DNA of 14,006 bases from Desulfobacterales bacterium (GTDB taxonomy: Bacteria; Desulfobacterota; Desulfobacteria; Desulfobacterales; JAUCGF01): the NCBI GenBank assembly GCA_029940345.1, contig JAOZRC010000066.1:1-14006 (forward strand), in the 5' to 3' direction. This document shows positions 163 through 13,897 of this stretch, in pieces. The notes beneath the pieces were generated by a model. The model saw nothing but the letters and a program-made list of their open reading frames with translations. It ran no database searches and was not told where the DNA came from. Made by a program: the position numbers and the translations under genes. How positions within the stretch are numbered: the first letter of the stretch is position 1; every line of letters begins with the position of its first letter.

Positions 163-1482
163 CTACATTTCCGTTTCAGGATGAAACACCCAGACATCTT
201 TTAAGTCATCTCCCAGGTATGCTCTCTCGTTGGGCCCGAGGATTCCGAGGGAGAGCGCAAGCAAAGACCAGAAATGGACAACCTGATAGTGACTTTCGTA
301 AACATCGCTCAACTCGTGTATCTGGGCATGGCAGTTGTGGCAGGCCGCAATGACATAAGTGGCGCCCGTATCCTTGATTTGCTGGTCTTTGATTTTGCCA
401 TATTCGAGACGCTCTTTTTTAAATCCTGATTGCAGAAAACCGCCGCCGCCCCCGCAACAGTAATTGTTCGATTTGTTCGGATACATGTCGACAAAATTCT
501 CTTCACCGATCACTGCCTTTACGGCATAACGCAGGTCTTCGGCAATGGCGTCTCCGAAGCTCTTGCGCACGATCTGGCAGGGGTCCTGTAGAGTGAACTT
601 GATTTTAAGGTCTTTGTTCCAATCGGGATTTGGTTTCAGCTTGCCTTCCCTGATCCATTTTGCGTAATATTCGTAGATGCTTTTTACTTCAAAGTTGTGG
701 GGAATGTCGAATTTTTTCAGTCCGGCCCGGACTGCATAAGTGACGTGCCCTCATTCAGTACTCAGGTAGGTCTTGACGCCCAAATCATCTGCCTGCTTGG
801 CCTTAACTCTTACGATTTTTTCCCAGCTTTCGTCGTCGGAGATGAACATGCAGTAATTTTCTCCGCCCCATCCTTTGCTGCCGTAAGTCCAATCGACACC
901 GGCCGTATGAAGAATCTTCCATAGCGGAACCATTTCATCCGGTTCTGTCACAGGCTCCCTTGAGTTCTGGTTTAGAAAAAACTCGGCCCCTTGTTTGTCA
1001 ATGGGCGCCTTCATATCGCTAAATTCCGGCTGGGCCTCTACATATTCTTCCAGGACGTCTTCCACAACAAATGTAAAATCATCCGGTGTTGTCCCCATTG
1101 CGCTGCAACTTTCGTTTCGAAGCGCCATATCGCAGGAACCGATAATTCCCTTGGGCCTTTCTTCCCTGGGCCGCATTGCCCGGACAGAGAATACAAGCTG
1201 CGGTATGTCTATTTTCATGGGACAGACATAGATGCACCTCTGGCACATTGTGCACATCCAGGGCCAGTCAGATGCCAGGATTTGTTCGTCCATGCCGAGG
1301 GCCGCCATGCGCAAAAATTTTCTCGGGTCCATGTCGTCGAGACCTGTGGCGGGACATCCCGAAGAACACGCCCCGCATGTGAGACAAAGGTTAAGATTGC
1401 CCCCTTGCGGAAGAATCTCCTTTACCTTATCCATGATTTTGCTCTTTTGTTTTCCAAATAGCTTCATCACACTTTCAGCCAT
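163..1482 (-). CDS. HdrD-like (HdrC+HdrB) iron-sulfur protein with in-frame UGA, probable selenoprotein
   Basis: This is one 439-residue protein read through a single in-frame UGA (751-753), predicted as Sec244. The N-terminal HdrC-like part has two [4Fe-4S] motifs, C33-x2-C36-x2-C39-x3-C43-P and C77-x2-C80-x2-C83-x3-C87-P. The C-terminal HdrB-like part carries CCG domains. The second is complete (C302, C342-C343 followed by a Gly run, C381-x2-C384), as needed for a noncubane [4Fe-4S] cluster. The first is degenerate: C211, then T-E-U-G-H, where DsrK/TmcB/HmcF-type relatives have E-C-G-H. The start at 1482 was chosen because GGAGGT lies 7 nt upstream; an ATG at 1506 lacks a good ribosome site. 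It has no membrane segment, unlike HdrE-linked systems, and is the last gene of the operon. Its likely role is the thiol/disulfide or electron-accepting end of the HdrA-MvhD-MetFV complex (inference). The alternative is a nonsense-mutated pseudogene. Confidence 0.85.
718..734 (-). promoter_or_regulatory. Candidate bacterial SECIS hairpin
   Basis: Downstream of the UGA (751-753) the mRNA has 16 nt and then CAGUCCG-GGC-CGGACUG: a perfect 7-bp stem closing a GGC triloop, or a 6-bp stem with a GGGCC loop. The loop starts about 24 nt after the UGA and opens with G. Both agree with the usual bacterial SECIS rules (loop about 16-37 nt downstream, G in the first two loop positions). The stem is GC-rich and lies inside the coding sequence, where a bacterial SECIS belongs. 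SelB binding is inferred, not shown. Confidence 0.75.
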
Positions 1483-1523
1483 ACAAATTACCTCCGTTTT
1501 AACCATTATCTTTTTTTAAGGCT

Positions 1524-2993
1524 CTAATCATGAATCGGAAGATAGACGTGAAACGTACTGCCCTTATCCGGTTCACTTTCCAATCGGATCATCCCGTTAT
1601 GGGATTCAATGATATTTTTTACTATGGACAGACCGAGTCCGGTGCCTGTTATCATGCGCCTTTTTGCATCTTTTATCCTGAAAAAGCGTTCAAAGACGCG
1701 ATCCTGATCCTCCCGGCTCATGCCGAAGCCCTCATCGGCAACACTGATAAGAAGATAATTCTTCTCTTTTTTCGCGGTTAGGGTTATGCGGGTTCCTTCC
1801 CGGGAATATTTAATCGCATTGGTGATCAGGTTGGAAAAGACTTCTTCCATGTTCACTTTGTTGGAAAGCACCGGGTCAAGTCCCGATGCGGTTTCCAATT
1901 TCAGGGATATGTTTTTCTCTTCCGCTCCCGGCCGGTGAAACGAAACCAGATCATCCAAAAGCGCCTTCATATCCACCTGCTCTTTCTCCATGACCAAAAG
2001 GCCCGACTCGATTTTTGCAAGATCAAGAAGATCCGTTGTCAATTCCGCTAGCGCATTAAGCCGTAAGGATGCCCTTTGGATGGTCTCTTTTTGCCTGGCA
2101 TTGATCTCCCCAAGCAGTTCATCCGAAAGGATTTTCAGTTGGGCCATGACCGCGCCGAGGGGGTTTCGTATCTCGTGGGAAACCATGGAAACGAAATCTG
2201 ACTTTTCACGATTTATCCGGTTCGCCGCCGTAATGTCCCTTAACATGGTTATGGTTCCGATATTTCGTCCGGTTCGATCCCGGAATGGAAGTGCTTTTGC
2301 CCCGATCACCATCTCTACTTTCTTTTTTTCATTCAGATCATCAATCTCTTCAGTCAACTCTGCGAATTCTCCATCCGGTATGGAGAGGCACGCATCAATA
2401 AGATCGTGCAACTTTTTGTTGCCGGTCAGTTGGCTGACGGATTTTCCTATGGCACTTATGCTCCCGCAATCCAGCATGGATAAAAAGGCCGGGTTGGCAA
2501 GAACCACATTTTTTTCCGTGTCCGTGGTCAAAACCCCGTCCGTAAGATGATTGATCAACATCCTCATCCTTGATTTTTCTGTTGCAATGTCCTGCAAGGC
2601 ATAAGTAAAATCAATGGCCTTTGACACTGTCACCCGAAGTTGATCCGGTGAAAAGGGCTTGGGAATAAAGTCAAAAGCCCCTTTTTTCATGGCTTTAATC
2701 GAATGTTCCAAAGTAGCGTAACCGGAAATAACGATCAGAACCGTCTCGGGATGGATCGACTTTACATGTCCCAAAACGTCAAAACCGGAAAGCCCCGGCA
2801 TCATAAGATCCAAAAGAACAATGTCGTAATGGGACGCTTCGATCATTTTAATGCCCTCTTGGCCGTTTTGGGCGGAAAAAACAGAGTATCCCTCGGCTGT
2901 CAGCACCTTTGTGCATCCGTCACGAACCCTTTTCTCATCATCAATAATTAGAATTCGCGGGTCAAAATTCTGTTTTTGTGAATAATCACTCAT
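1524..2993 (-). CDS. Hybrid receiver-PAS-histidine kinase
   Basis: The protein is 489 residues, cytoplasmic, with no transmembrane segment. An N-terminal receiver (about residues 12-125) has the acidic pair D18-D19, phosphoacceptor D62 (LLDLMMP), S90 and K112. A PAS domain follows (about 145-258). The HisKA domain contains H273 in S-H-E-I-R-N-P. The HATPase domain shows an N-box around N392, the G1 box DEGFGM near 420 and the G2 box GTGLGLS near 450. Having the receiver at the N-terminus suggests it takes phosphate from, or is modulated by, the upstream kinase of the same operon. No DNA-binding domain is present. AAAGGT lies 7 nt before the ATG. The gene is separated from the upstream kinase by 59 bp and from the downstream selenoprotein gene by about 40 bp. 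Its signal and partner are unknown. Confidence 0.9.
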   Translation of the reverse strand: MSDYSQKQNFDPRILIIDDEKRVRDGCTKVLTAEGYSVFSAQNGQEGIKMIEASHYDIVLLDLMMPGLSGFDVLGHVKSIHPETVLIVISGYATLEHSIKAMKKGAFDFIPKPFSPDQLRVTVSKAIDFTYALQDIATEKSRMRMLINHLTDGVLTTDTEKNVVLANPAFLSMLDCGSISAIGKSVSQLTGNKKLHDLIDACLSIPDGEFAELTEEIDDLNEKKKVEMVIGAKALPFRDRTGRNIGTITMLRDITAANRINREKSDFVSMVSHEIRNPLGAVMAQLKILSDELLGEINARQKETIQRASLRLNALAELTTDLLDLAKIESGLLVMEKEQVDMKALLDDLVSFHRPGAEEKNISLKLETASGLDPVLSNKVNMEEVFSNLITNAIKYSREGTRITLTAKKEKNYLLISVADEGFGMSREDQDRVFERFFRIKDAKRRMITGTGLGLSIVKNIIESHNGMIRLESEPDKGSTFHVYLPIHD

Positions 2994-3052: not shown

Positions 3053-4582
3053 TTAAAAACCTATGTCCTGGATCATCTCCTCATCCTTGCCTGGTATATA
3101 CAGGGGAAGCTCTATGAGAAAGGTTGTCCCATCACGACCTGTCTCCTTGACGGATATGTGTCCACCGTTCTCTTTTATAATCCCATAAGTGGTGCTAAGT
3201 CCCAGTCCTGTTCCCTTGCCCAGCTCCTTGGTTGTAAAAAAAGGGTCAAATACCTTGGAAATATTCTCCTTGTCAATGCCGCAGCCGGTGTCCGCTATTT
3301 CGAGAGATACCTTTCTCTTTTCTTTGTTTCTGTAAGTTCGGAAACTGAGACTTCCTTTTTTATCCATTGCATCGACCGCGTTGATGATAAGGTTGATAAT
3401 CACCTGATGTATCTGGTTTCTGTCTCCTTGTATCATCATCATCACTTGGGAGATCTCTTTTTTTATTTCAATGTTCATGAATATCTCCTGATCCCTGATC
3501 AGGGCAAGACTTTGATTTACGAGATCGTTTATCATGAGAATTTCTTTTTTCGGGTTTGTCTGGCGGCTGTAAACAAGGAGATTTTTAACGATTTCTTTGC
3601 ATCTGTCAGCGTCTTCGAGGATATATCCAAGGTCCTCTTTTCTTGCGTCGTTATCATCCATGTTCTCAAGGAGCATGTCAGCGTATAGCATGATACCGGT
3701 GAGCGGGTTGTTTATTTCATGGGCCACACCCGCCGCAAGCTGGCCGATGGAGGCCATTTTCTCCGAATGAAGCGCCCTTGTTTCCACATCTTTCAGTTTT
3801 TTTTCAACTTCCAGCCGTTCTCTTAAATCGTTATAAACGCCCATGCTGCCGGTTTCCTGTCCGTCCTCGTAAATGATTGCCGCGGTCATGCGAACCGGCA
3901 CCTCTTCTCCGGATGCGTTTAATATATTCACCTCAGTGCTGGACAACTTGCCCTTTCCCCCAAAAAGAGGGGACCTTAATTTTTTCATGATTTCCCGAGC
4001 CACTCCGGGAGGATAAATATTTACCGCTTCCTTTCCTTTCACCGCCGAAGAAATTTCTTCTGTCGTAAAGCCAAACAGCTCTTCGGCCGCTTTGTTCATG
4101 AGGATACCGTCTTTGGAGGCCGCCAAAATAGCGGAAACGGAACTATGGATGACACTCCGCATAAGATCCGTCATTCCCGTGAGTCGTTTCTCCAGATTTT
4201 TTATGCGTGTGGCGTCCCTGACACTCTCCATTATGTATGCAACATCACCCTCATCATCCAGTATGGGAGAAAAAACGCGCTCTTCCCATACCACCTTGTT
4301 TCCATCTTTCCTGACATCGTTTAAAATGGAGCAGCCGGTCTTACTCTCTATCATCTTTTGGATGGGGCATCCCTCCGGCGTGCAAGGGAAATCCGCTTCT
4401 CTGAAATAATCGGAGCATTTCTTGCCGATTACATCACTGTAAGATACTTCAAATTGTTCTAAAAATATTTTGTTAGCGGAAATGATTTCCTTGTTTGTTT
4501 TCAGAATAAGGGTGGGAAAAGAAAGTGAATCGAATACTCTGAAACGCCAGTCCGACTCTTCATGTGTTTTTTTATTATTCAT
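3053..4582 (-). CDS. PAS-PAS sensor histidine kinase with Cys-rich PAS motif
   Basis: The protein is a 509-residue soluble kinase. The first PAS domain (about 10-125) carries C56-x10-C67-x4-C72 plus C84. This resembles the C...PCxxCP signature seen in many PAS domains of anaerobic Deltaproteobacteria and may support redox or metal sensing (inference). A second PAS domain (about 140-255) and a short coiled linker lead to HisKA with H288 in G-V-A-H-E-I-N-N-P, the NtrB-like type. The HATPase domain has the N-box near 397-401, the G1 box DTGCGI near 431 and the G2 box GKGTGLGLS near 455. The start at 4582 overlaps the upstream stop by 8 nt (ATGAATAA), which implies translational coupling; an upstream ATG at 4690 would overlap that gene by 116 nt and precede the PAS domain with unrelated sequence. 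Its cognate receivers are probably the stand-alone receiver and the hybrid kinase in the same operon. Confidence 0.88.
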   Translation of the reverse strand: MNNKKTHEESDWRFRVFDSLSFPTLILKTNKEIISANKIFLEQFEVSYSDVIGKKCSDYFREADFPCTPEGCPIQKMIESKTGCSILNDVRKDGNKVVWEERVFSPILDDEGDVAYIMESVRDATRIKNLEKRLTGMTDLMRSVIHSSVSAILAASKDGILMNKAAEELFGFTTEEISSAVKGKEAVNIYPPGVAREIMKKLRSPLFGGKGKLSSTEVNILNASGEEVPVRMTAAIIYEDGQETGSMGVYNDLRERLEVEKKLKDVETRALHSEKMASIGQLAAGVAHEINNPLTGIMLYADMLLENMDDNDARKEDLGYILEDADRCKEIVKNLLVYSRQTNPKKEILMINDLVNQSLALIRDQEIFMNIEIKKEISQVMMMIQGDRNQIHQVIINLIINAVDAMDKKGSLSFRTYRNKEKRKVSLEIADTGCGIDKENISKVFDPFFTTKELGKGTGLGLSTTYGIIKENGGHISVKETGRDGTTFLIELPLYIPGKDEEMIQDIGF

Positions 4583-5093
4583 GGTAACTGTCGGGAGTCT
4601 CGAATGTTTGGGATAAAAGCGAGACAGCGGTTTTAACATCATCCATTGGAAAAACAAGATAAACCGCCGCCCCGGAAAAACCGGCCGCAATTATCTCAAC
4701 CTTGCCGTCCAGAGTTTTGAAAACCGTTTCGGCTATTCCGTACCGATCACCGTAATGAGGGCCGTGAAAATAGACGAGACCCACCGGGTAAGTCTCGCCA
4801 AGGAAATCAATATTTTCTGACAGGCATTTTTGCTTCAGCAGTTCAACTGCATGACGCCGGTCTTTCCCCGGCATCCCAAGGCAAATGCTCCTTGTGTCAT
4901 TTTGTGTATCATTTTGGGTGTCATTATAATTCCACAAAAGAGCGAATTCATTTTTTACCGGGTCAAGATCATGTATCAAGGCGCCGATTTTTGCCAAATC
5001 ATCCGATGCCATTCGGACAAGGCTCACATCGGATACCTCTTTAAACCCATAAGTCTTTATGGTCGGCTCCCAGTATACCGCTATTGTTTCCAT
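4575..5093 (-). CDS. ACT-like domain protein (second of a pair)
   Basis: The protein is 172 residues with no membrane segment. Its C-terminal half (about 100-168) contains alternating strand/helix segments ending in a Gly-rich strand (A-G-F-S-G-A-A-V-Y-L-V) and an amphipathic helix. This pattern is close to the tandem ACT domains of aspartate kinase regulatory regions. The N-terminal half looks like a more diverged copy of the fold. No catalytic domain is present, so a ligand-sensing or regulatory role is likely (inference). A three-unit N-D-T-Q repeat interrupts the middle of the protein. It lies 12 bp after the other ACT-like gene and overlaps the kinase start by 8 nt. An AGGA ribosome site precedes the ATG. 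The ligand is unknown. Confidence 0.65.
   Translation of the reverse strand: METIAVYWEPTIKTYGFKEVSDVSLVRMASDDLAKIGALIHDLDPVKNEFALLWNYNDTQNDTQNDTRSICLGMPGKDRRHAVELLKQKCLSENIDFLGETYPVGLVYFHGPHYGDRYGIAETVFKTLDGKVEIIAAGFSGAAVYLVFPMDDVKTAVSLLSQTFETPDSYHE
4894..4929 (-). repeat. Three tandem 12-bp units inside the ACT-like gene
   Basis: On the plus strand the units are GTGTCATTTTGT, GTATCATTTTGG and GTGTCATTATAA, each 12 bp. On the coding strand they encode N-D-T-Q repeats. Gain or loss of a unit would preserve the frame, so this is a possible slippage site of length variation in a linker. Confidence 0.7.
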
Positions 5094-5105
5094 GCTGTTT
5101 TAATC

Positions 5106-5645
5106 CTATTTATGAACATGCTTTATGCAAAACTGCTGTTGGAAAGGGGCATGATTTTGCGGGAGTTTGAAATTCTCCTTTAGCGCCTCTACGGCTTTTT
5201 CCAAACAGTCACACTCGGTCAGGAAGGTGAAAGAGGATATGGATGAAGTCATGTTGTAAACCGGTATCTTTTTTTTCCCAAAGGCGAAAAGAATTTTTCC
5301 CAGGAGCTTCATAAGGGATTTATGGGGATAAATGCTTATGGTGCCAAGGTTGTGCAAGACCTCCAGCCGTTCTTTTAATTCAGGAAAAGGGGCAATAATC
5401 TTATAAATCTTATGGAGATTATCCTCTGCAACGGAGCAATCGGTTCGTACGGTTTTAGCATCCCTGATCATGGAAAGCATGGAGATGTTAATCTCGTTTT
5501 CCGAAAGCAGGCTGAAAAAAAGCATGGCCGTATTTTTTTTAGAAATTTTCCCGGAAATCGGTTCTGTGATGCTTAAAAGGGCAATGTTTTCCGTGAATTT
5601 AACCCCGCCAATGTTTAATTTTTCTTCCGTCCGCATTCTGCTCAT
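5106..5645 (-). CDS. ACT-like domain protein (first of a pair)
   Basis: The protein is 179 residues. The C-terminal part (about 95-165) has the beta-alpha-beta-beta-alpha-beta run typical of ACT domains: a strand T-I-S-I-Y, a helix with G-K-I-L-F-A, a strand I-P-V-Y-N-M-T-S-S-I-S-S and a final helix E-K-A-V-E-A-L. The N-terminal part (about 10-85) looks like another ACT-like unit. It resembles aspartate-kinase ACT tandems without any kinase domain. Its neighbour is a similar-sized ACT-like protein, so the two may form a heteromeric ligand sensor (inference). The ATG at 5645 is preferred, with GGAAGG about 10 nt upstream; a GTG at 5663 would add six residues. It sits between the stand-alone receiver and the sensor kinase in the operon, which suggests a role in the same signalling path. 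Confidence 0.65.
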   Translation of the reverse strand: MSRMRTEEKLNIGGVKFTENIALLSITEPISGKISKKNTAMLFFSLLSENEINISMLSMIRDAKTVRTDCSVAEDNLHKIYKIIAPFPELKERLEVLHNLGTISIYPHKSLMKLLGKILFAFGKKKIPVYNMTSSISSFTFLTECDCLEKAVEALKENFKLPQNHAPFQQQFCIKHVHK

Positions 5646-5699
5646 ATTATTTTGCCTTCCCACCCCTTCGCTTTTTGGCTAGGGGCGGGATTTACGTTT

Positions 5700-6092
5700 T
5701 TAAGAAACATCAAGATTTTCTTTGACAATTTCCATGAGATTGTCAAGATCAATCGGCTTTGGAACAAAATCATCGGCCATGGTTGTTTTTCCGTCCATGT
5801 GGGTGTAACTTGTTGAGGTTACAGCATCGCCCACAGCGGTGAGAAGAACCACGGTGATATCCTTGTAATTGTCGTCCGCCTTTAACTCGTCACACAGTTC
5901 ATAGCCGTTTTTCCTCGGCATCATAACGTCCAGGATCACCAGGTCCGGCTTTTCGGCCTTGATTTTTTCCCATGCTTCGACGCCGTCATACGCTTTTTGA
6001 ACTTTGAAGTTTTCGCTTTCCAGCTTTATGGAAACGGATTCCACCAAATCGGGATCATCATCCACTACCAGTATTAATTTATCGTTGCTCAT
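5700..6092 (-). CDS. Stand-alone response regulator receiver
   Basis: The protein is a single CheY-like receiver of about 130 residues with no output domain. Counting from the alternative first ATG at 6095, it has the acidic cluster D12-D13-D14, phosphoacceptor D56 in I-L-D-V-M-M-P, a conserved T in L-L-T-A and K in P-K-P. An insertion after alpha-4 (T-S-T-S-Y-T-H-M-D-G region) makes it slightly longer than a minimal receiver. AAGGAG precedes two consecutive ATGs; the second (6092) has better spacing. It lies 31 bp after metF and 54 bp before the ACT-like pair. Without an output domain it probably acts by protein contact or as a phosphorelay intermediate between the operon's kinases (inference). 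Confidence 0.9.
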   Translation of the reverse strand: MSNDKLILVVDDDPDLVESVSIKLESENFKVQKAYDGVEAWEKIKAEKPDLVILDVMMPRKNGYELCDELKADDNYKDITVVLLTAVGDAVTSTSYTHMDGKTTMADDFVPKPIDLDNLMEIVKENLDVS

Positions 6093-6123
6093 CATAATCT
6101 CCTTTCAATTTTTGGTTTTGATA

Positions 6124-7050
6124 CTATTTTATTTCGGGCCTCGGATAGAGACCCGCTTTTTCCACTATTTCAGGAACTTTCTGTTCCCATTCAATGGCCA
6201 TTATATGAAAACCGTGAACCCCTGGCACCTCTTTCAGTCTTTGAATCTGTTCCACGGCGATTTTAATTCCCTCTTGGGGCTGCTCCTTTTTGGAGACACC
6301 GGCCAACCGTTTCACGATTTCATCCGGCACGTCCATTCCCGGCACCCTGTTTTTCATGTATCTGGCCATTCCGACTGATTTCATAGGGGTGATGCCGGCC
6401 ATGATGTGAACCTTCTTGTCGAGGCCGCGGTCACACACCCCTTGCATCCATGTCTCGAATTTGGCCATGTTGTAGATGCACTGGGTCTGGATAAAATCGA
6501 CGCCGGCGTTTATTTTTTTGGCAAGACGCGCCACCCGCAGTTCAAAAGGATCGGCAAAGGGATTGGCCGCCGCACCAATGAACATTTTAGGCGGATTCAA
6601 TATGTCGTCACCCCCCTGGAATTTCCCTTCGTCTCTCATTTTTCTCACGGTTTGAACAAGCTGCACGGAGTCCAGGTCATAAACGTTTGCGGCCATGGGG
6701 TGATCTCCGAAGTGCGGGTGGTCCCCGCTCAGGCATAGCATCGTGTTGATGCCGTGGGAATAGGCGCCGATGATATCACTTTGCATGGCAAGGCGGTTTC
6801 TATCCCGGGTCACCATCTGGAAGATCGGATCAAGGCCAATCTGTTTGATGAGGATGCACGCGGCCAAACTCGACATTCTAACCATAGCCGTCTGATTGTC
6901 GGTTACGTTTATGGCATCAACATAACCCTCCAGCATTTTTGCCTTTTCAATCACTTTTTCCGGAAGAGCGCCCCGCGGCGGGCCGCATTCGGAAGTTACG
7001 GCAAGTTGTCCCGAATTAAAAACTTTTTCCAATACGCTTTCAGTTTTCAT
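6124..7050 (-). CDS. metF: Methylenetetrahydrofolate reductase, MetFV type
   Basis: The protein is 308 residues, the usual length for the MetF TIM barrel. It interconverts methylene- and methyl-tetrahydrofolate at FAD. The catalytic Glu is E21 (S-E-C-G-P-P-R, matching the E-F-F-P-P-R element of E. coli MetF), and the conserved Asp is D110 in L-S-G-D. The R-D-R-N-R-L-A-M-Q segment is the flavin/folate region conserved in the family. The start ATG shares one base with the metV stop (TAATG), so the two are translationally coupled, as expected for subunits of one MetFV enzyme. In acetogens and sulfate reducers the electron path runs through MetV and, when hdrA/mvhD are linked, through an Hdr-type module. 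In this organism it could run in either direction. Confidence 0.94.
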   Translation of the reverse strand: MKTESVLEKVFNSGQLAVTSECGPPRGALPEKVIEKAKMLEGYVDAINVTDNQTAMVRMSSLAACILIKQIGLDPIFQMVTRDRNRLAMQSDIIGAYSHGINTMLCLSGDHPHFGDHPMAANVYDLDSVQLVQTVRKMRDEGKFQGGDDILNPPKMFIGAAANPFADPFELRVARLAKKINAGVDFIQTQCIYNMAKFETWMQGVCDRGLDKKVHIMAGITPMKSVGMARYMKNRVPGMDVPDEIVKRLAGVSKKEQPQEGIKIAVEQIQRLKEVPGVHGFHIMAIEWEQKVPEIVEKAGLYPRPEIK

Positions 7051-7715
7051 TATACCAAGTCCTCCCTGATAATTTTCCTGGGGCCGCCATCACGGCTTGT
7101 TCGCCAGTCCTTTGCCGTCATCACTTCTTCATAGCGGTTTTCTATGCCAAGGGCCTTCATCCTGTCCCAAATCAACTGCCAGACGCAGTCCACATCCTGG
7201 CTTATCTCGCATTTGCCGGCTGTTGAACCCCCGCAGGGACCGTTCAAAAGCCGCTTTGAGCATCTGGCAACCGGGCATATCCCCCCTGTCAATCCGAGGA
7301 TACAGTCTCCGCATCCCTGGCAGCGCTCGGCCCATACTCCCTGGCGCTCGGCCGCTCCCATGAACAGTGTGTTGAGGGCGGGATACACCGGTTTGTCTTT
7401 ATAACGCCGCGCCACTTCCTGAACCCCGCAACCGCAGGCCATGGAGAGAACCGCATCGGCCTGATCAATAACCGTTACCAATTCTTCCACGTACTCCGGA
7501 TCACACTGCCTCTCCAGGGTAAGCTCTTTTATATCAAGCGTTTTGCCCTCTTGCATAAATGCCATTTGAAGGGCTGAGGATAAAATTCCCACCTCTTTTC
7601 GACCTCCGGCCGCGCATACGGTTACGCACTCGTTGCAACCCACAAGAAGAATCCGATTATAGGGTCTTACCGACTCAATGATTTCTTCCATCGGTTTTCT
7701 TTCAGCGGTAATCAT
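7050..7715 (-). CDS. metV: MetV, iron-sulfur partner subunit of MetF
   Basis: The protein is 221 residues and Cys-rich. An N-terminal G-C27-N-E-C30-x3-C34 motif precedes a Rossmann-like segment with C71, C94 and C96. A C-terminal set follows: C132-x2-C135-x2-C138, C147, C152, N-G-P-C161-G-G, C169 and C177. This matches the MetF C-terminal-like/MetV family, which binds [4Fe-4S] clusters (and zinc in the Moorella enzyme) and passes electrons to the MetF flavin. AAAGGA stands 6 nt before the ATG. It overlaps metF by 1 bp. Upstream, a 182-bp gap holding a palindromic repeat separates it from mvhD, although the mvhD-metV-metF order is typical of the MetFV-HdrABC-MvhD gene set. Confidence 0.93.
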   Translation of the reverse strand: MITAERKPMEEIIESVRPYNRILLVGCNECVTVCAAGGRKEVGILSSALQMAFMQEGKTLDIKELTLERQCDPEYVEELVTVIDQADAVLSMACGCGVQEVARRYKDKPVYPALNTLFMGAAERQGVWAERCQGCGDCILGLTGGICPVARCSKRLLNGPCGGSTAGKCEISQDVDCVWQLIWDRMKALGIENRYEEVMTAKDWRTSRDGGPRKIIREDLV

Positions 7716-7761
7716 CTTATTTCCTTTCAGTATTTTTTATCTGTTTAACTCAATTTTATCG

Positions 7762-7842
7762 TAGGGTGGGTGAAGCTCGGCGTAACCCACCATCGTTTAA
7801 CCTGCAAAAAACGGTGGGTTTCGCTACGCCACACCCACCCTA
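7762..7842. repeat. REP/MITE-like palindrome between mvhD and metV
   Basis: The element is 81 bp. Its outer arms are perfect 11-bp inverted repeats, TAGGGTGGGTG (7762-7772) and CACCCACCCTA (7832-7842). Inside are imperfect arms, GGCGTAACCCACC on the left and GGTGGGTTTCGCTACGCC on the right, around an A-rich centre. It has no coding potential. The transcript would fold into a long hairpin inside the operon. No clear target duplication is visible. Confidence 0.85.
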
Positions 7843-7897
7843 AATGGCGCAATACACACAAAACAAACGCCTGAACATTGAGTTGTAAAGCAGCGGG

Positions 7898-8332
7898 TTA
7901 CGCCGCTTTTGCGTTCTCCATACCCGCTTTTAACGGATTCGGTCCGAGCTTGCGGATTTTATCGGTTATTTCAAAGGCAACTTCTGCAAAACGTTCTCCC
8001 ATGCCGGCGCTCATGGCAACCATTTCAACACGCTCTGGCTCAATTCCGATCTCTTCCAGAAGCGCCTGCACCTGTTTTACGCGCTGCAAAGCCCTGAGAT
8101 TGCCGTTTTTAAAATGGCAGTCACCCTCAAGGCATCCGGCTACATAGACACCGTCAGCGCCGTTTTCCAGGGCCTTCATTATATGAATCGTATCAACTTT
8201 TCCGCTGCATGGAACACGAATAATCTTCACATTGGCGGGATAAGCGATCCGCTTGCTTCCAGCCATATCGGCGGCCGTATAGGCGCAATAGTGACAGCAG
8301 AAAGCGACTATTACAGGTTCAAAATCTTTCAT
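7898..8332 (-). CDS. mvhD: MvhD-type [2Fe-2S] electron transfer subunit
   Basis: The protein is 144 residues, typical of the MvhD/FrhD-like family. The cluster-binding Cys set is C13-x2-C16 (F-C-C-H-Y-C), C42 (V-P-C-S-G-K), C67 and C72 (G-C-L-E-G-D-C-H). MvhD links an electron donor to HdrA; in methanogens this is the Mvh hydrogenase. Here no hydrogenase is next to it and MetFV follows, so it most likely joins MetFV to HdrA (known arrangement, role inferred). The ATG directly follows the hdrA stop (TAA-ATG), and AAAGGA lies in the hdrA 3' end, indicating coupled synthesis. All five Cys are encoded normally; no Sec is seen. Confidence 0.93.
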   Translation of the reverse strand: MKDFEPVIVAFCCHYCAYTAADMAGSKRIAYPANVKIIRVPCSGKVDTIHIMKALENGADGVYVAGCLEGDCHFKNGNLRALQRVKQVQALLEEIGIEPERVEMVAMSAGMGERFAEVAFEITDKIRKLGPNPLKAGMENAKAA

Positions 8333-11300
8333 TTAATTCATCCTTTCAAAAAGTCCGTCAAGCCTTGCCAGAATCTGATCGTCCTGGAATTGCATCAACT
8401 GGATCGCCTTAGCGGGACACTCAGCCGCGCAAATTCCACACCCGTGACATCTTGCCGGATCTATTTCGGAATACCCGTCCGCGTTTATAAACGGTATACT
8501 GTAGGGGCAAGCGCGAACACAAATCAGGCAGGCGGCGCACTTTTTACCGTCCACCTTGGCCACGGAAGCGCCCAGGTTGATTTCATCCTGGGAGAGAAGG
8601 GTCTGCGCCCTTCCTGCCGCGGCCTGAGCCTGGGCGATGCTTTCACGTATGTTTTTAGGTGAGTGGGCCGTGCCGGCAACAAAGAACCCGGGCACCGGAA
8701 GATCAACCGGTCTTAACTTGATATGGTCTTCCAAAAAATAGCCATCATCGGTTCTCTGGAGATGAAATATGAAGCCCAGGTCTTCCGTTGACTCGTCATC
8801 TGAAATAAAGCCGGTGCTGAGACATAGAATATCCGCCGTAACAGAGGCCTTAATTCCTAAGATCGGCTCGTTAAATGTCACAGTGACCTTATCCTCATCA
8901 GCCTCGACTGCGGGCTTAGTTTCGAGAGAATATCTTACGAATATAACCCCCTTCTCCCTGGCCTCCTTGTAGTAATCCTCCTGGAAGCCATACGTCCGCA
9001 TATCCCGATAAAGAACGATGATATTGGCATCAGGGTTAAGATCGATAATGCGCAAGGCGTTTTTAACGGCTGCCTGGCAGCACACACGCGAGCAGTTCGG
9101 GTTCTCCTTTGTCCTGGAACCGACGCACTGAATCATAACCACATTAGCGGCGTTTTTTACGGAATCCGGGTCATCTTCGATTCTTTCGTCGAGTTCCAAC
9201 TGGGTGACAACTGCGTCATGCTCATTTAAAAGATACTCGGAAGGCTTGTTCGGCAAGGCTCCGGTGGCAAGAATGGTGACACCGTGTTTTATGCTGGTGT
9301 AAAACATTTGGGGGCCGGACTGCACACCGGTGGTGAACATGCCGGGCATACCAGAGTGATCGACGATGATCGCCGGAGCCATGACCTGAATTTTTTCATG
9401 ATTCATTGTTCGCTCGATCATCTCTGCCACCTTGGAGCGAACATCTTCCCCTTCCAATGTTTTTCGAATATTTGCCGCCATTCCACCCAACCGGGGCGAA
9501 CGCTCGGCCAGAAACACCTTGAACCCCCTGTCCGCAAGGGCAAGGGCGCTTGTCATGCCGGCGACGCCGCCGCCCACCACCAGGATGTCCTTGTTCATGG
9601 GGAGGGTGTAATCAACAAGCGGTATGCTCAACTTAACGCGCGCCACGGCCATTCTTATCAGTTCCCTGGCCTTGTTCGCGGCGATTTCAGGCTGATCCCG
9701 ATGAACCCAGGTGTCCTGATCCCTGATATTGGCAATCTCCACGAGATACTTGTTCAATCCCGCCCGGCGAACCATGTCCTGAAACTTGGTCTCATGGGTT
9801 CGCGGTGAACACCCGCCGATTACAACCCTGTTAAGCTGATGCTCTTTTATATAGCTTTCTATATTTTTCTGGGATTCCCCTGAACAGCCGTGTCCCACCG
9901 CAATCGCCACCTCAACTCCCGCAATGGTTTTGCAGTAATCCACAAGCGCCGGAACATCTATAACGCCGCCTATGTTAAAGCCGCAATCGCAAACGAACAC
10001 GCCGGTTCGGGGTGTTTCATCGGTTACGTCTCGTTCCGGAGGAAACGCTTCATACCCATCGTAATCATCCCACTGATTTTCCACAGCGGAATCGGCCGGG
10101 GCCTTGGCTTGCTTTCCACGCGGGACAATGCCCAGCGCTTTACAGGCAGCAGCGCTTCCCTGCACCATGGTTTCCGGTATATCCTTGGGGCTTTCGAACA
10201 TTCCGCACACGAAAATCCCTGGCCTGGAAGTCTCAACCGGCTTGAATGAGGCAGTCTCCGCAAACCCGTGCGGATTCAACTTGATTCCCATGACTTCGGC
10301 CATTTCCCGGGTTTCTTCGGAAATCATAAATCCGGTGGACAAAACCACCATATCGAATTCTTCGGTTATGTTTTCCGATTTTTCATCCTGCGTGTAACAG
10401 ACCGCAAGGTTCATATCTTTCGGGTTTTGAACGACACTGTGAGGACGGCTCCTGACAAAACGGACACCGAATTCATCTTTGGCCCTCTGGTAGTACAGTT
10501 CGTAATCCTTTCCCGAAGTCCGCATGTCCATGTAGAAAATGACCGTTTCGATGTCATCTTTGAAACGCTCGCGGGTTACGATGGCCTCTTTGGTTGCGAA
10601 CATGCAACAGGCGCTTGAACAGTAGGAAGCGGCTCCTTTCTGGATTCCACGGGAGCCGACGCACTGTATCCATGCGATTCTTTTCGGCTGCTTGCCGTCC
10701 GATGGTCTTACAAGGATTCCTCCCGTAGGGCCTGACGCTGACAGGATTCTTTCGTACTCAAGACTTGTAAACACATTGTCGTAAAGCCCTTTTCCGAAGT
10801 GATCCAGATGAGACGGATCGAATATCGAAGCGCCGGGGGCCAGGATAACCGCACTGACCTCAATCAGGGTCTCTTTGGCCTCATCATCTGGCAGGATCGC
10901 TCCTATCTTACATGTCTTTTCCAGGGCCTCCGGGTCGTTGCATTTATCCATATCAACAGAATAGGACCAGGGGGTCGCCTGGGGATACCGCATACATGTG
11001 GGCGCCCTGTGATCAAGGCCCGGCGTAAACCGGATGCACTCCGGGAAGCTTTCGAGGCATTCTCCGCAGGCGGTGCATTTTTCAACATCTATGTATCGGG
11101 GCCAGGTTTTAAGGGTTACTTCAAAGGCTCCGGCCTCTCCTTGAATGCCTGTCACATCAGTCATGGTTTTAAGATCAATGTGCAGTTCACGGCCGCTTTC
11201 GGAAAGATGGGGGGATAATGTACACAGATCGCAATTATTCGTGGGAAAAGTACGATCAAGTTGGGTCATAAGACCCCCAATGGAATAGGCGTTGTCCACC

Positions 11301-11410
11301 AGCACCACATCGCCGCCGGATTCCGCAATATCCAGGGCGGCCCGGATTCCACCGACACCTCCTCCGACAACCAGCACTTTACCAGTCTGAACAGAGTTTT
11401 GATTTTGCAT
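8333..11410 (-). CDS. hdrA: HdrA-type flavoprotein, duplicated two-module form
   Basis: The protein is 1025 residues, longer than the roughly 650-residue methanogen HdrA. It contains module 1 (residues 1-430), with a GGGVGG dinucleotide site at 16-21 and C60/C63; a canonical HdrA N-terminal domain (about 468-570), with C474, C476, C509 and C534; a second FAD module with GGGVAG at 613-618; and two C-terminal [4Fe-4S] motifs (C958/C961/C964/C968 and C988/C991/C994/C998). HdrA carries the bifurcating FAD in Hdr complexes. The ferredoxin insert of module 1 is degenerate: C112-C115-C118 is followed by F122 instead of Cys, and the second motif keeps only C157 and C167. The start at 11410 was chosen because AAGGGAT lies just upstream; an ATG at 11434 overlaps the upstream gene by 14 nt. 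It is flanked by the MetF paralogue and mvhD. Confidence 0.93.
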   Translation of the reverse strand: MQNQNSVQTGKVLVVGGGVGGIRAALDIAESGGDVVLVDNAYSIGGLMTQLDRTFPTNNCDLCTLSPHLSESGRELHIDLKTMTDVTGIQGEAGAFEVTLKTWPRYIDVEKCTACGECLESFPECIRFTPGLDHRAPTCMRYPQATPWSYSVDMDKCNDPEALEKTCKIGAILPDDEAKETLIEVSAVILAPGASIFDPSHLDHFGKGLYDNVFTSLEYERILSASGPTGGILVRPSDGKQPKRIAWIQCVGSRGIQKGAASYCSSACCMFATKEAIVTRERFKDDIETVIFYMDMRTSGKDYELYYQRAKDEFGVRFVRSRPHSVVQNPKDMNLAVCYTQDEKSENITEEFDMVVLSTGFMISEETREMAEVMGIKLNPHGFAETASFKPVETSRPGIFVCGMFESPKDIPETMVQGSAAACKALGIVPRGKQAKAPADSAVENQWDDYDGYEAFPPERDVTDETPRTGVFVCDCGFNIGGVIDVPALVDYCKTIAGVEVAIAVGHGCSGESQKNIESYIKEHQLNRVVIGGCSPRTHETKFQDMVRRAGLNKYLVEIANIRDQDTWVHRDQPEIAANKARELIRMAVARVKLSIPLVDYTLPMNKDILVVGGGVAGMTSALALADRGFKVFLAERSPRLGGMAANIRKTLEGEDVRSKVAEMIERTMNHEKIQVMAPAIIVDHSGMPGMFTTGVQSGPQMFYTSIKHGVTILATGALPNKPSEYLLNEHDAVVTQLELDERIEDDPDSVKNAANVVMIQCVGSRTKENPNCSRVCCQAAVKNALRIIDLNPDANIIVLYRDMRTYGFQEDYYKEAREKGVIFVRYSLETKPAVEADEDKVTVTFNEPILGIKASVTADILCLSTGFISDDESTEDLGFIFHLQRTDDGYFLEDHIKLRPVDLPVPGFFVAGTAHSPKNIRESIAQAQAAAGRAQTLLSQDEINLGASVAKVDGKKCAACLICVRACPYSIPFINADGYSEIDPARCHGCGICAAECPAKAIQLMQFQDDQILARLDGLFERMN

Positions 11411-11420
11411 TTTTATCCCT

Positions 11421-12293
11421 TTATAGTTGAGCATAATCCAAAATAGTCGGCAGTCTGTGTTCCCATCCGAGAGTTACCACAAGGACGCCGTCAACTTTAT
11501 CTTTCAAAGCCTCTATGGACTCACCGGCAATCTTGAGGCACTCGGTCTCCCGATCCCGTGACTTTCTGATCCTTTTTATAAGGTCTTCCCCTACGCGGCT
11601 TTCAGGCTCGGTTACGGACATGTACCTTGCAATTCCCACCGATTTAATCAGAAAAACAGTTGCGATCACAGGCACATTCAAGGCTTTGATCTTGTCCGCC
11701 GCGGATGAGAAATAATCTATGTCAAATATGGGGGGTGTGATTATGAACTGTGCCCCGGCGTCTGCCTTTCGCTTTGCTATTTCCAGCTCCTTTTCAAGGG
11801 AAGCATCGTCAGCAAACTTTCCCAGGGTGCAGCCAAGGGTAAACTCAGGAGCGCCTGCAAGATCAAATCCGGCCATGTCAGAACCATCCTGAAGTCTGCG
11901 CACAACCTCCAAAAGCTGTATCTCATCCAGGTCATTCACTATCCTGGCATCCTTATGATCACAGCTTGCCATCTCTTCACCCTTGACAACGATCAGGTTC
12001 TGAATACCCAAAACATGCGCCGCCAGAATATCCCCCTGGAGGGCCATCCTGTTTCTGTCACGGCAGTAAACATTGATAACCGCTTCTAAACCCTGTTGAT
12101 GCATTAGGACTCCGCCAGCCAGTGCGCTCATTCGCATGACACCGTTGTCCATGTCCGGAACAACCACAGCATCAATACGCCCTTTGATACGGCGCGCATT
12201 GTTCACCAGCTCGGAAATATTCACCCCCTTGGGGGTGTGCATCTCGGCCAGAACAACAAACTCTTTCGATAATAACCTCTTTTTCAAGCTCAT
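11421..12293 (-). CDS. MetF-family paralogue, short form
   Basis: The protein is 290 residues with the MetF TIM-barrel pattern and shares the R-D-R-N-R-M-A-L-Q segment with the downstream MetF. The catalytic Glu position is kept (E17 in L-A-E-M-H-T-P), but the family's G-D is G-E (E106), and other folate-side positions differ (T-P-P-I-F-D against T-Q-C-I-Y-N). It has no C-terminal MetV-like extension. It immediately precedes hdrA, with 10 bp between stop and start, so it is probably a second C1-carrier-dependent module feeding the same HdrA, or a regulatory or specificity variant (inference). AAGGA lies about 7 nt before the ATG. It is confidently a MetF homologue; its substrate is uncertain. 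Confidence 0.85.
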   Translation of the reverse strand: MSLKKRLLSKEFVVLAEMHTPKGVNISELVNNARRIKGRIDAVVVPDMDNGVMRMSALAGGVLMHQQGLEAVINVYCRDRNRMALQGDILAAHVLGIQNLIVVKGEEMASCDHKDARIVNDLDEIQLLEVVRRLQDGSDMAGFDLAGAPEFTLGCTLGKFADDASLEKELEIAKRKADAGAQFIITPPIFDIDYFSSAADKIKALNVPVIATVFLIKSVGIARYMSVTEPESRVGEDLIKRIRKSRDRETECLKIAGESIEALKDKVDGVLVVTLGWEHRLPTILDYAQL

Positions 12294-12451: not shown

Positions 12452-12703
12452 TTATTGAGGATTCACCTTTATAATACGAATCCGATAATACAACTGCTCA
12501 TCACATAAAACAGACTTCTCAACCAGTTTAAATGTTCCCTCCGGTAGTATTTTAAAGAGAAATGTCCGTGTTTCAGGGTCACGCCCAAGAATCTCAAGCA
12601 CTTCATCAGGCTTCATTTTTTTAAAAAGGCTGCTGACTTTTAATAATGTGACAGGGCTGATAATCCCCCTGACATCAAGAATATAATCGGCTTTTTCTTT
12701 CAA
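12452..12703 (-). CDS. TusA/SirA-fold protein lacking the catalytic Cys
   Basis: The protein is 83 residues with the TusA fold order: strand Y-I-L-D-V-R-G, then I-S-P-V, a long Lys-rich helix, strand E-V-L-E-I-L, and a terminal helix and strand. The C-P-x-P sulfur-carrying Cys of TusA is Ser16 here (I-I-S-P-V-T), so persulfide transfer at that site is not expected. A regulatory or scaffold role is possible. It would be the first gene behind the sigma-54 promoter, about 40 nt from the predicted transcript start. No ATG is available; the frame opens with TTG at 12703, with AGGA only 2 nt and CGGA about 12 nt upstream. The start is therefore uncertain. Confidence 0.7.
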   Translation of the reverse strand: MKEKADYILDVRGIISPVTLLKVSSLFKKMKPDEVLEILGRDPETRTFLFKILPEGTFKLVEKSVLCDEQLYYRIRIIKVNPQ

Positions 12704-13071: not shown

Positions 13072-13180
13072 TTATAAAATAAAATTTACACTTTTGGTAT
13101 TTACGTTTTCATATTTTTCGTGTAATTCGTGTATTTCGTGGCTAAAAAAATAAAAGTGTAAAGTAACAAATGAAGGATGC
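13058..13180. mobile_element. MITE-like element in the broken activator gene
   Basis: The element is 123 bp, bounded by perfect 12-bp inverted repeats GCATCCTTCATT (13058-13069) and AATGAAGGATGC (13169-13180). Inside are further perfect 11-bp arms, TTTACACTTTT (13085-13095) and AAAAGTGTAAA (13152-13162). The core has short CGTG-type repeats (TTCGTGTAATTCGTG). It is AT-rich with no reading frame. GTTTTTT occurs on both sides (13049-13055 and 13182-13188) and could be a 7-bp target duplication, although it is low in complexity. Confidence 0.8.
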
Positions 13181-13568
13181 TGTTTTTTACAAACAAAATT
13201 TCATAAATTTCCCGGAAAAGACCGGCGGAAACAGATCGGCTGCCGCAAGATTACTCGGCATCTCCCGTGTGCTTGTCTGGAATAGGATGTTCTTTCCCCA
13301 AACATTTTCAGAACACCGATGGGATGAGACAAAGCCGTTGCTGACAAAGCTGGTCGGAGACCATGCGGAATTTGTGAGAATCTGGTTCTCATGGCGTCCG
13401 GCCTCGCCGGATCCAGGTGATGACCACATCATTGACTGTGCGATGAACGCTCGTGCCTTGGTAGTCACCGCCAATGTGCGGGATTTTGAGGAGGCTGTGA
13501 GAACTCTGGGTCTGACAGTGATGACCCCTGTGAAATTCCTGGAATATCTTTCAGATCGGGAGAACTGA
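13170..13568 (+). pseudogene. Chimeric remnant: activator Fis-type HTH joined to C-terminal half of a PIN toxin
   Basis: The open frame encodes 132 residues. Residues 16-40 (E-K-T-G-G-N-R-S-A-A-A-R-L-L-G-I-S-R and V-W-N-R-M) are the Fis-type HTH that ends NtrC-family activators. From about residue 41 the sequence changes to the second half of a VapC-like PIN domain: D-P-G-D-D (81-85), I-D-C-A-M-N-A, V-V-T-A-N-V-R-D-F (98-106) and a final M-T-P-V-K-F-L-E-Y-L. The PIN N-terminus with its first catalytic Asp (usual D-T-N-V) is absent, so nuclease activity is unlikely. No ribosome site precedes the ATG, which lies inside the terminal repeat of the MITE-like element. The stop overlaps the next start (TGATG), preserving the usual toxin-antitoxin coupling. 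It is best read as two gene remnants fused by rearrangement. Confidence 0.7.
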
Positions 13569-13897
13569 TGAACGAAGTCACTTTGCAACTACCGAAAACC
13601 CTGTACCAAAATCTTGAAGTTCTGGCTAAGAGAGAGGCCGTTCCGCTGACTCAGTATATAATTTACATCCTGACCAGTCAGATGTCGGGAGGCTATACGG
13701 TGCGTGTCGTTTCGGATGAGAATGTCGTCAGGCAGAAGGCGTCTTTTGAAAGTCTGCTGAGGAAATGGGGCCGAATCACGCCTTCCGAGGCTGACAGAAT
13801 TCTGGACAGACGGGAGCCTGCGGAACCGGATCTGGCTCCCGAAGTTGTCAGCAGACTGAAAGCACGAATTGCCCGCAGCAAAAACAACCATATATAA
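13568..13897 (+). CDS. Ribbon-helix-helix antitoxin (HicB-family-like), probably orphaned
   Basis: The protein is 109 residues. The N-terminus (V-T-L-Q-L-P-K-T-L-Y-Q-N-L, then A-K-R-E and L-T-Q-Y-I-I-Y-I-L) fits a ribbon-helix-helix domain of the kind seen in HicB-family-like antitoxins next to PIN toxins. The C-terminal half (about 55-105) is charged and helical and would contact the toxin. The ATG shares one base with the preceding stop, the usual coupling of such pairs. Because the neighbouring PIN domain lacks its first half, the antitoxin is probably an orphan. Its domain structure is intact, so it may still be made if a promoter remains. Confidence 0.75.
   Translation: MNEVTLQLPKTLYQNLEVLAKREAVPLTQYIIYILTSQMSGGYTVRVVSDENVVRQKASFESLLRKWGRITPSEADRILDRREPAEPDLAPEVVSRLKARIARSKNNHI

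Follow-up and report, generated by a model that had tools for sequence, protein, structure and literature searches.

The window analyzed here, the whole 14,006-nucleotide stretch of contig JAOZRC010000066.1 from the Desulfobacterales bacterium assembly GCA_029940345.1, carries on its minus strand an HdrD-like gene (163..1482) in which an HdrC-like N-terminal part and an HdrB-like C-terminal part form one chain interrupted by a UGA codon. Comparative sequence analysis indicates that this gene is a selenoprotein gene and that UGA-244 is read as selenocysteine (Sec), given that TGA is kept across loci, a downstream hairpin is conserved, the sel machinery is present and UGA is a stop elsewhere in the genome. 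In the account that we favor, and to which we assign a probability of roughly 0.55 as a whole, the Sec-decoded HdrCB chain would link HdrA/MvhD to MetVF, with Sec244 facing a noncubane iron–sulfur cluster. The selenoprotein class is already known; as far as our searches show, its association with MetVF and the structural mapping of Sec244 are new.

A Fused HdrC–HdrB Frame with Sec at Codon 244

The gene occupies a single minus-strand frame from the ATG at 1480-1482 to the TAG at 163-165, with UGA at 751..753 as the sole in-frame interruption, and inspection of the sequence reveals a Shine–Dalgarno-like GGAGG (1491..1495, minus strand) 8 nt 5' of the ATG. The read-through product has 439 residues, Pfam matches to Fer4_8 (residues 30-91) and CCG (residues 297-388), and full-length relatives. 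An earlier reading made from the sequence alone (the original prediction) held that the two parts share one frame and are split only by the UGA in T-E-[UGA]-G-H (residues 242-246), and that automatic annotation would break the gene up; frame analysis bears this out, and standard-code open reading frame (ORF) calling does break the frame in two. The HdrC-like part (1210..1395, minus strand) contains two [4Fe-4S] motifs whose cysteines (C33/36/39/43 and C77/80/83/87) are invariant in a 50-sequence alignment. The Pfam CCG match (319..594, minus strand) is the second CCG domain, which is complete (C302/C342/C343/C381/C384) and, from its alignment to HdrB and EtfD, is predicted to bind a noncubane cluster; in the same alignment C343 is almost invariant and the other four are fully so, in line with the expectation that the downstream half has its cysteines. 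This is the single CCG match, and two complete CCG domains such as those of methanogen HdrD were not found by Pfam. In the first CCG domain no ligand Cys is conserved in the 50-sequence alignment except position 244 and C211.

To compare codon 244 we used the best 80 of 327 relatives from the genome collection, which a rough parse of titles traces to about 77 assemblies. The closest locus is from Desulfococcaceae bacterium HSG9 (95% identical), from which we take the host to be probably a sulfate reducer; culturable relatives with the gene include Desulfonema magnum (L037) and Desulfocicer vacuolatum (L050). In 80/80 of these loci codon 244 of the matched gene is TGA; an additional hit, a paralog in Desulfocicer vacuolatum (L050), has TGC. 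Counting all copies in the fetched loci, with some genomes repeated, gives 133 TGA, 20 TGC, and 2 TGT codons. Among the matches listed from 116 genomes of the order, every one above 66% identity has the in-frame TGA and all TGA-less matches are at or below 66%, as are some TGA forms; the TGA-G-H motif also occurs in distant relatives. All 120 proteins listed of 2444 protein-database matches have Cys at position 244, a set biased toward Cys because ORF callers split Sec genes; the UGA in all 80 nearest loci means that standard-code calling halves such genes. Two Cys paralogs in the genome of the window carry E-C-G-H. A tree of 78 rows, comprising clustered copies and 11 of the 120 database proteins, requires at least 5 Sec/Cys changes, and some Cys forms are nested within Sec clades. 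A TGA misread or misassembled from TGC or TGT has in its favor that the genome is a draft of 1024 contigs and nothing else; with TGA in 80/80 loci of other assemblies and in two further copies in the same genome, these independent genomes rule it out.

Conservation of the Hairpin beyond Coding Needs

The original prediction had placed a 7-bp hairpin with a G-starting loop about 24 nt after the UGA. We find it at 718..734 (minus strand; positions 20-36 counted from the U of UGA) as CAGUCCG-GGC-CGGACUG, a perfect 7-bp stem that starts at the 17th nucleotide after the UGA with a GGC loop from the 24th, and its conservation and covariation support a selenocysteine insertion sequence (SECIS)-type element. 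The counts below took in 131/133 TGA and 21/22 Cys copies, with some loci repeating the same genome. The perfect stem is present in 97/109 distinct TGA sequences versus 0/20 distinct Cys sequences, and G stands at the loop start in 109/109 of the former. Stem pairing across the 109 TGA sequences is 98.4% versus 58.1 ± 1.6% under random synonymous recoding, where 1000 draws gave a mean of 1.7 and a maximum of 7 perfect stems of 109.

Pairing is kept in 97.2% of pair cells among the window and 30 sequences that differ in the hairpin stretch; three pairs vary on both sides, none of 500 shuffles attains the covariation score, and shifting the partner destroys the signal. Pair 26/30 illustrates how the stem is preserved: codon 253 has a final A in 35/35 sequences with Leu at residue 252 and a final C in 69/74 with Arg there, so that an amino-acid change at 252 is matched by a mostly silent change in codon 253. 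In more distant Sec relatives, RNAfold folds point to other candidate hairpins in roughly this position. An Rfam scan of 163-1600 gave two weak matches only (SNORA21 and rpsB), both far under their gathering scores, which is neutral with regard to a SECIS.

These data also bear on whether the UGA is a true stop, so that the locus yields a shortened HdrC-like protein or two independent products. The frame is split by ORF calling, and termination at Sec codons is common under selenium shortage; however, the hairpin is kept beyond amino-acid needs, full-length Cys relatives exist, and the 3' half of the frame is under constraint similar to that on the 5' half (ratio of nonsynonymous to synonymous change, dN/dS, or pN/pS where saturated, below 0.17 in six pairwise comparisons), and we regard a true stop as very improbable.

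Decoding Machinery and Genetic Code

The genome encodes a full set of Sec decoding and synthesis genes, all over their cut-offs: selB (366 bits), tRNA-Sec (73.9), selA (595), and selD (375.8). The selD gene (L207, contig C204:280-1203) has an in-frame TGA, from which SelD is probably itself a selenoprotein; a script check for a hairpin there returned candidates only, to which we give no weight. A variant code in which UGA is a sense codon genome-wide would agree with the fact that 0/12 assigned genes of the window end in TGA, but TGA ends 34/108 ORFs of at least 200 aa on 20 other contigs; UGA is an ordinary stop elsewhere in the genome, and this rules the variant code out. None of the counterobservations that the original prediction had named was encountered: the sel genes are present, homologs carry Cys or Sec at the position, and the UGA recurs in independent genomes. 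Its assignment of Sec to codon 244 is upheld by the Cys/Sec alternation, the conserved hairpin, and the selA, selB, tRNA-Sec, and selD genes.

Some observations count against the Sec assignment or temper its support. Ascertainment was unequal: the loci were taken as the 80 nearest of 327, and the 120 proteins are predictions spanning the full length, a set in which split Sec genes would rank low. The starred branches of the tree force just 2 of the Sec/Cys changes. Of the 500 shuffles, 46 reached the hairpin's count of pairs changed on both sides and 45 its count of pair types, and the 31 sequences include broken pairs (3 at 22/34, 2 at 26/30, and 1 at 20/36). Finally, although SelB is over its cut-off in 98/116 genomes of the order, 12 genomes with the TGA form gave no SelB over cut-off, even at a loose threshold. 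These 12 have selA in 12/12 and tRNA-Sec over cut-off in 10/12, and because most of the machinery is present in the same genomes the missing SelB looks like draft-assembly gaps.

A second, divergent SelB-like GTPase with weak matches to the SelB wing or β-barrel is encoded near Cys-form HdrD/HdrA genes at L144:3111-5057(+), L149:624-2549(-), and L142:9761-11647(-); L141 likewise holds a SelB-like GTPase in this setting, the domain scan having covered the first three loci. Ten genomes have two selB matches, and in five of them (G013, G016, G048, G049, and G096) the second lies within about 9 kb of a TGA-less HdrD copy on the same contig.

Association with Met and HdrA Genes

The window contains the gene set of an Hdr-type methylenetetrahydrofolate reductase (MTHFR), with MetV, MetF, HdrA, and MvhD alongside HdrC/HdrB function. 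On the same strand as the Sec gene, with five genes between, a block at 6124-11434 comprises metF (6124..7050; PF02219), a metV-like gene for an MTHFR C-terminal domain protein (7050..7715; PF12225), an mvhD-like (FlpD) gene in the Cys form (7898..8332; PF02662), and an hdrA-like gene (8333..11434) whose 1033-aa product scores 859.8 bits against the NF040770 profile, under the 1100 cut-off. A second copy of the Sec gene in the same genome, 79% identical, lies between HdrA-MvhD and MetV-MetF. Its two parts, which we infer to be one gene, are found at the start of L224 (contig C722) and at the end of L225 (contig C1009); both contigs end at and share the UGA/hairpin stretch, indicating that the assembly broke at the hairpin of this copy. 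A third Sec copy (L099:1411-2652(+), contig C501; 40% identical) comes after an HdrA/MvhD-type ORF and before an enoyl-CoA hydratase gene; past its UGA, manual inspection allows a short stem around an AGGUCU loop, but the best RNAfold fold differs.

Across the 80 loci, Met genes are present in 36, HdrA in 47, and both in 35. To equalize flanks, we restricted the comparison to loci with 5 kb or more of sequence to either side and scored genes lying no farther than 6 kb away. On this basis 20/37 Sec loci, 5/11 more distant Sec loci, and 0/10 Cys loci have Met genes nearby; for HdrA the counts are 24/37, 6/11, and 7/10, respectively. A count of 21/37 versus 0/20 (p 7e-6) was discarded, as it mixed unequal flanks. 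The Met link of the Sec form is real but far from universal: the MetFV association put forward in the original prediction stands for the 20/37 well-flanked loci and fails as a general rule.

The evidence that speaks against tying the Sec form to the Met-Hdr setting is as follows. Neither Met nor HdrA genes are found in 32/80 loci, partly owing to contig ends, and in 13/37 well-flanked Sec loci neither lies within 6 kb, which indicates that the Sec protein also works outside this setting. The Fisher test on 20/37 versus 0/10 (p 0.0025) ignores kinship. In the window, two kinases, two small ORFs, and a receiver part the Sec gene from the Met-Hdr block. Moreover, in the deep-sea Chloroflexi DscP3 an hdrABC-mvhD-metVF cluster is described in which hdrC is fused to hdrB, a fusion also reported from some sulfate reducers (PMC5736913); DscP3 thus shares, in gene content, a fused HdrCB beside mvhD and metVF, which together with the discarded count slightly lowers the odds of our account, and the accessible text names Sec for formate dehydrogenases, not for the HdrCB fusion.

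Other genes recur beside the Sec gene. A CGGC-domain gene lies directly upstream of it in 9/80 loci (L024, L029, L040, L051, L053, L058, L062, L070, and L087, by tblastn; Pfam-confirmed in L024 and L087), and a TusA-like gene lies just upstream in five (L021, L043, L057, L081, and L086).

Predicted Position of Sec244 and Possible Mechanism

A profile alignment places Sec244 opposite a Cys that ligates a cluster in mycobacterial EtfD and pairs the invariant His246 (745..747, minus strand; 50-sequence alignment) with EtfD His583, which in EtfD of Mycobacterium smegmatis (9ojn) is described as a ligand of the noncubane cluster (PMC13083937). EtfD is reported to differ in carrying a linear [3Fe-4S] cluster within its CCG domains, along with a membrane part (PMC13083937); in our protein, Cys at the other first-domain places is not conserved besides C211. 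The structural model places Sec244 at the start of a helix that follows a strand. The model and the modest-score alignment support the proposal of the original prediction that Sec244 sits in a degenerate first CCG domain. The residue mapping depends on this one alignment, which is weak (E 0.0097) and counts as a further point against our account.

In the mechanism that we propose, UGA-244 is, on the comparative evidence, decoded as Sec by SelB with the SECIS-type hairpin just 3' of it, and the fused chain would do the work of both HdrC and HdrB within an MTHFR module of the Hdr type; gene clustering and analogy to the HdrCBA-MvhD-MetVF systems of acetogens suggest this replacement. Electrons would pass between HdrA/MvhD, the two cubane clusters, the second-domain noncubane cluster, and MetVF. 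The first CCG domain would have lost its own cluster, leaving Sec244 at the site of the former ligand, and Sec244 and His246 may face the remaining noncubane cluster. Sec could be a ligand or close redox partner of this cluster, speeding electron or thiol exchange, and may tune the cluster potential, as the original prediction supposed.

A possible alternative, to which we give less weight, retains the selenoprotein and assigns Sec244 the role of a catalytic nucleophile that acts at the noncubane cluster to reduce a disulfide or persulfide, the substrate being TusA-bound sulfur, a DsrC-like protein, or a small dithiol, and not that of a ligand or relay for MetVF. The place of Sec at a helix start after a strand in the model is like that of a thiol-redox site, a TusA-like gene is found in the window as well as upstream of the Sec gene in the five loci, and the well-flanked loci with neither Met nor HdrA also fit such a role, as does the report that HdrB cleaves disulfides at paired noncubane clusters (PMC13083937). 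On the other side, Met genes are near the Sec form and near none of the Cys forms, and work on the acetogen system recovered MetF with tagged HdrB and saw no faster methyl-tetrahydrofolate (THF) formation with dihydrolipoate or glutathione (PMC9430772). We favor a link from HdrA/MvhD to MetVF. If this link and the cluster-facing position are true, these anaerobes would be using selenium in the electron path by which methylene- and methyl-THF are interconverted, a reaction whose electron partner remains debated (PMC9430772; PMC8760232), and the protein offers a testable case of selenium beside or on a noncubane cluster.

Relation to Known Systems

The original prediction was silent on the fact that the family is already in print, both as an Fe-S oxidoreductase (GlpC, UGH) and as HdrD4. 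The "Fe-S oxidoreductase-like protein" (GlpC) with the motif UGH is a listed bacterial selenoprotein, for which a 2026 review credits Kryukov and Gladyshev 2004 (PMC13188914). GlpC is like our protein in being an Fe-S protein of Deltaproteobacteria with a U-G-H motif in the company of hdrA and frhD/mvhD (PMC1794560); our protein has the U-G-H motif, Fe-S and CCG domains with Cys homologs at the same position, and hdrA/mvhD clustering, the last not at all loci. The published operon, glpC-hdrA-frhD-frhG-frhA, includes a hydrogenase (PMC1794560), whereas here MetF/MetV are among the partners, as in about half of the well-flanked relatives (frhA was not searched for). In Desulfobacterium autotrophicum HRM2, Sec-containing HdrD4 and HdrF2 are named, the HdrD having been reported in 2009 (PMC2702500); by description only, HdrD4 is likened to our protein as a soluble, Sec-containing HdrC-HdrB type protein of a sulfate reducer. 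In Desulfococcus multivorans, five Sec genes are named in the accessible text, with no HdrD among them (PMC5109826).

The HdrCBA-MvhD-MetVF systems of Sporomusa and Moorella share HdrA, MvhD, MetV, MetF, and the HdrC and HdrB functions with the window, and both HdrB and HdrA of the acetogen system pull down MetF (PMC9430772). In contrast to the one Sec-containing chain here, their HdrC and HdrB are two distinct proteins, and that paper nowhere uses the word selenocysteine. The best named family matches of our protein are TmcB (177.6 bits), HmcF (175.9), and DsrK (129.7), with cut-offs of 735, 750, and 400; these scores are far under the curated cut-offs and we rejected identity with any of the three. 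In a search of open-licence literature, most of it screened at the level of listings, we found no description of the MetVF link of the Sec form or of its cluster-facing position.

Neighboring Genes in the Window

The genes between the Sec gene and the Met-Hdr block are all on the minus strand and were assigned by profile scan: a response regulator/PAS/histidine kinase (1524..2993), a PAS-histidine kinase (3053..4690), two adjacent small ORFs (4575-5663) with ACT-like matches below cut-off, and a response regulator receiver (5700..6095). Beyond the block, the same strand encodes a second MetF-like protein (11421..12293; PF02219) and the TusA-like protein (12452..12703; PF01206). No Pfam match was found for the ORF at 13568-13897, which comes next after a plus-strand ORF (13170-13568) with a Fis-type helix–turn–helix and a PIN_3 piece below the Pfam cut-off that has the look of a hybrid or remnant. 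ORFs like the pair at 4575-5663 adjoin the Met-Hdr block in several relatives.
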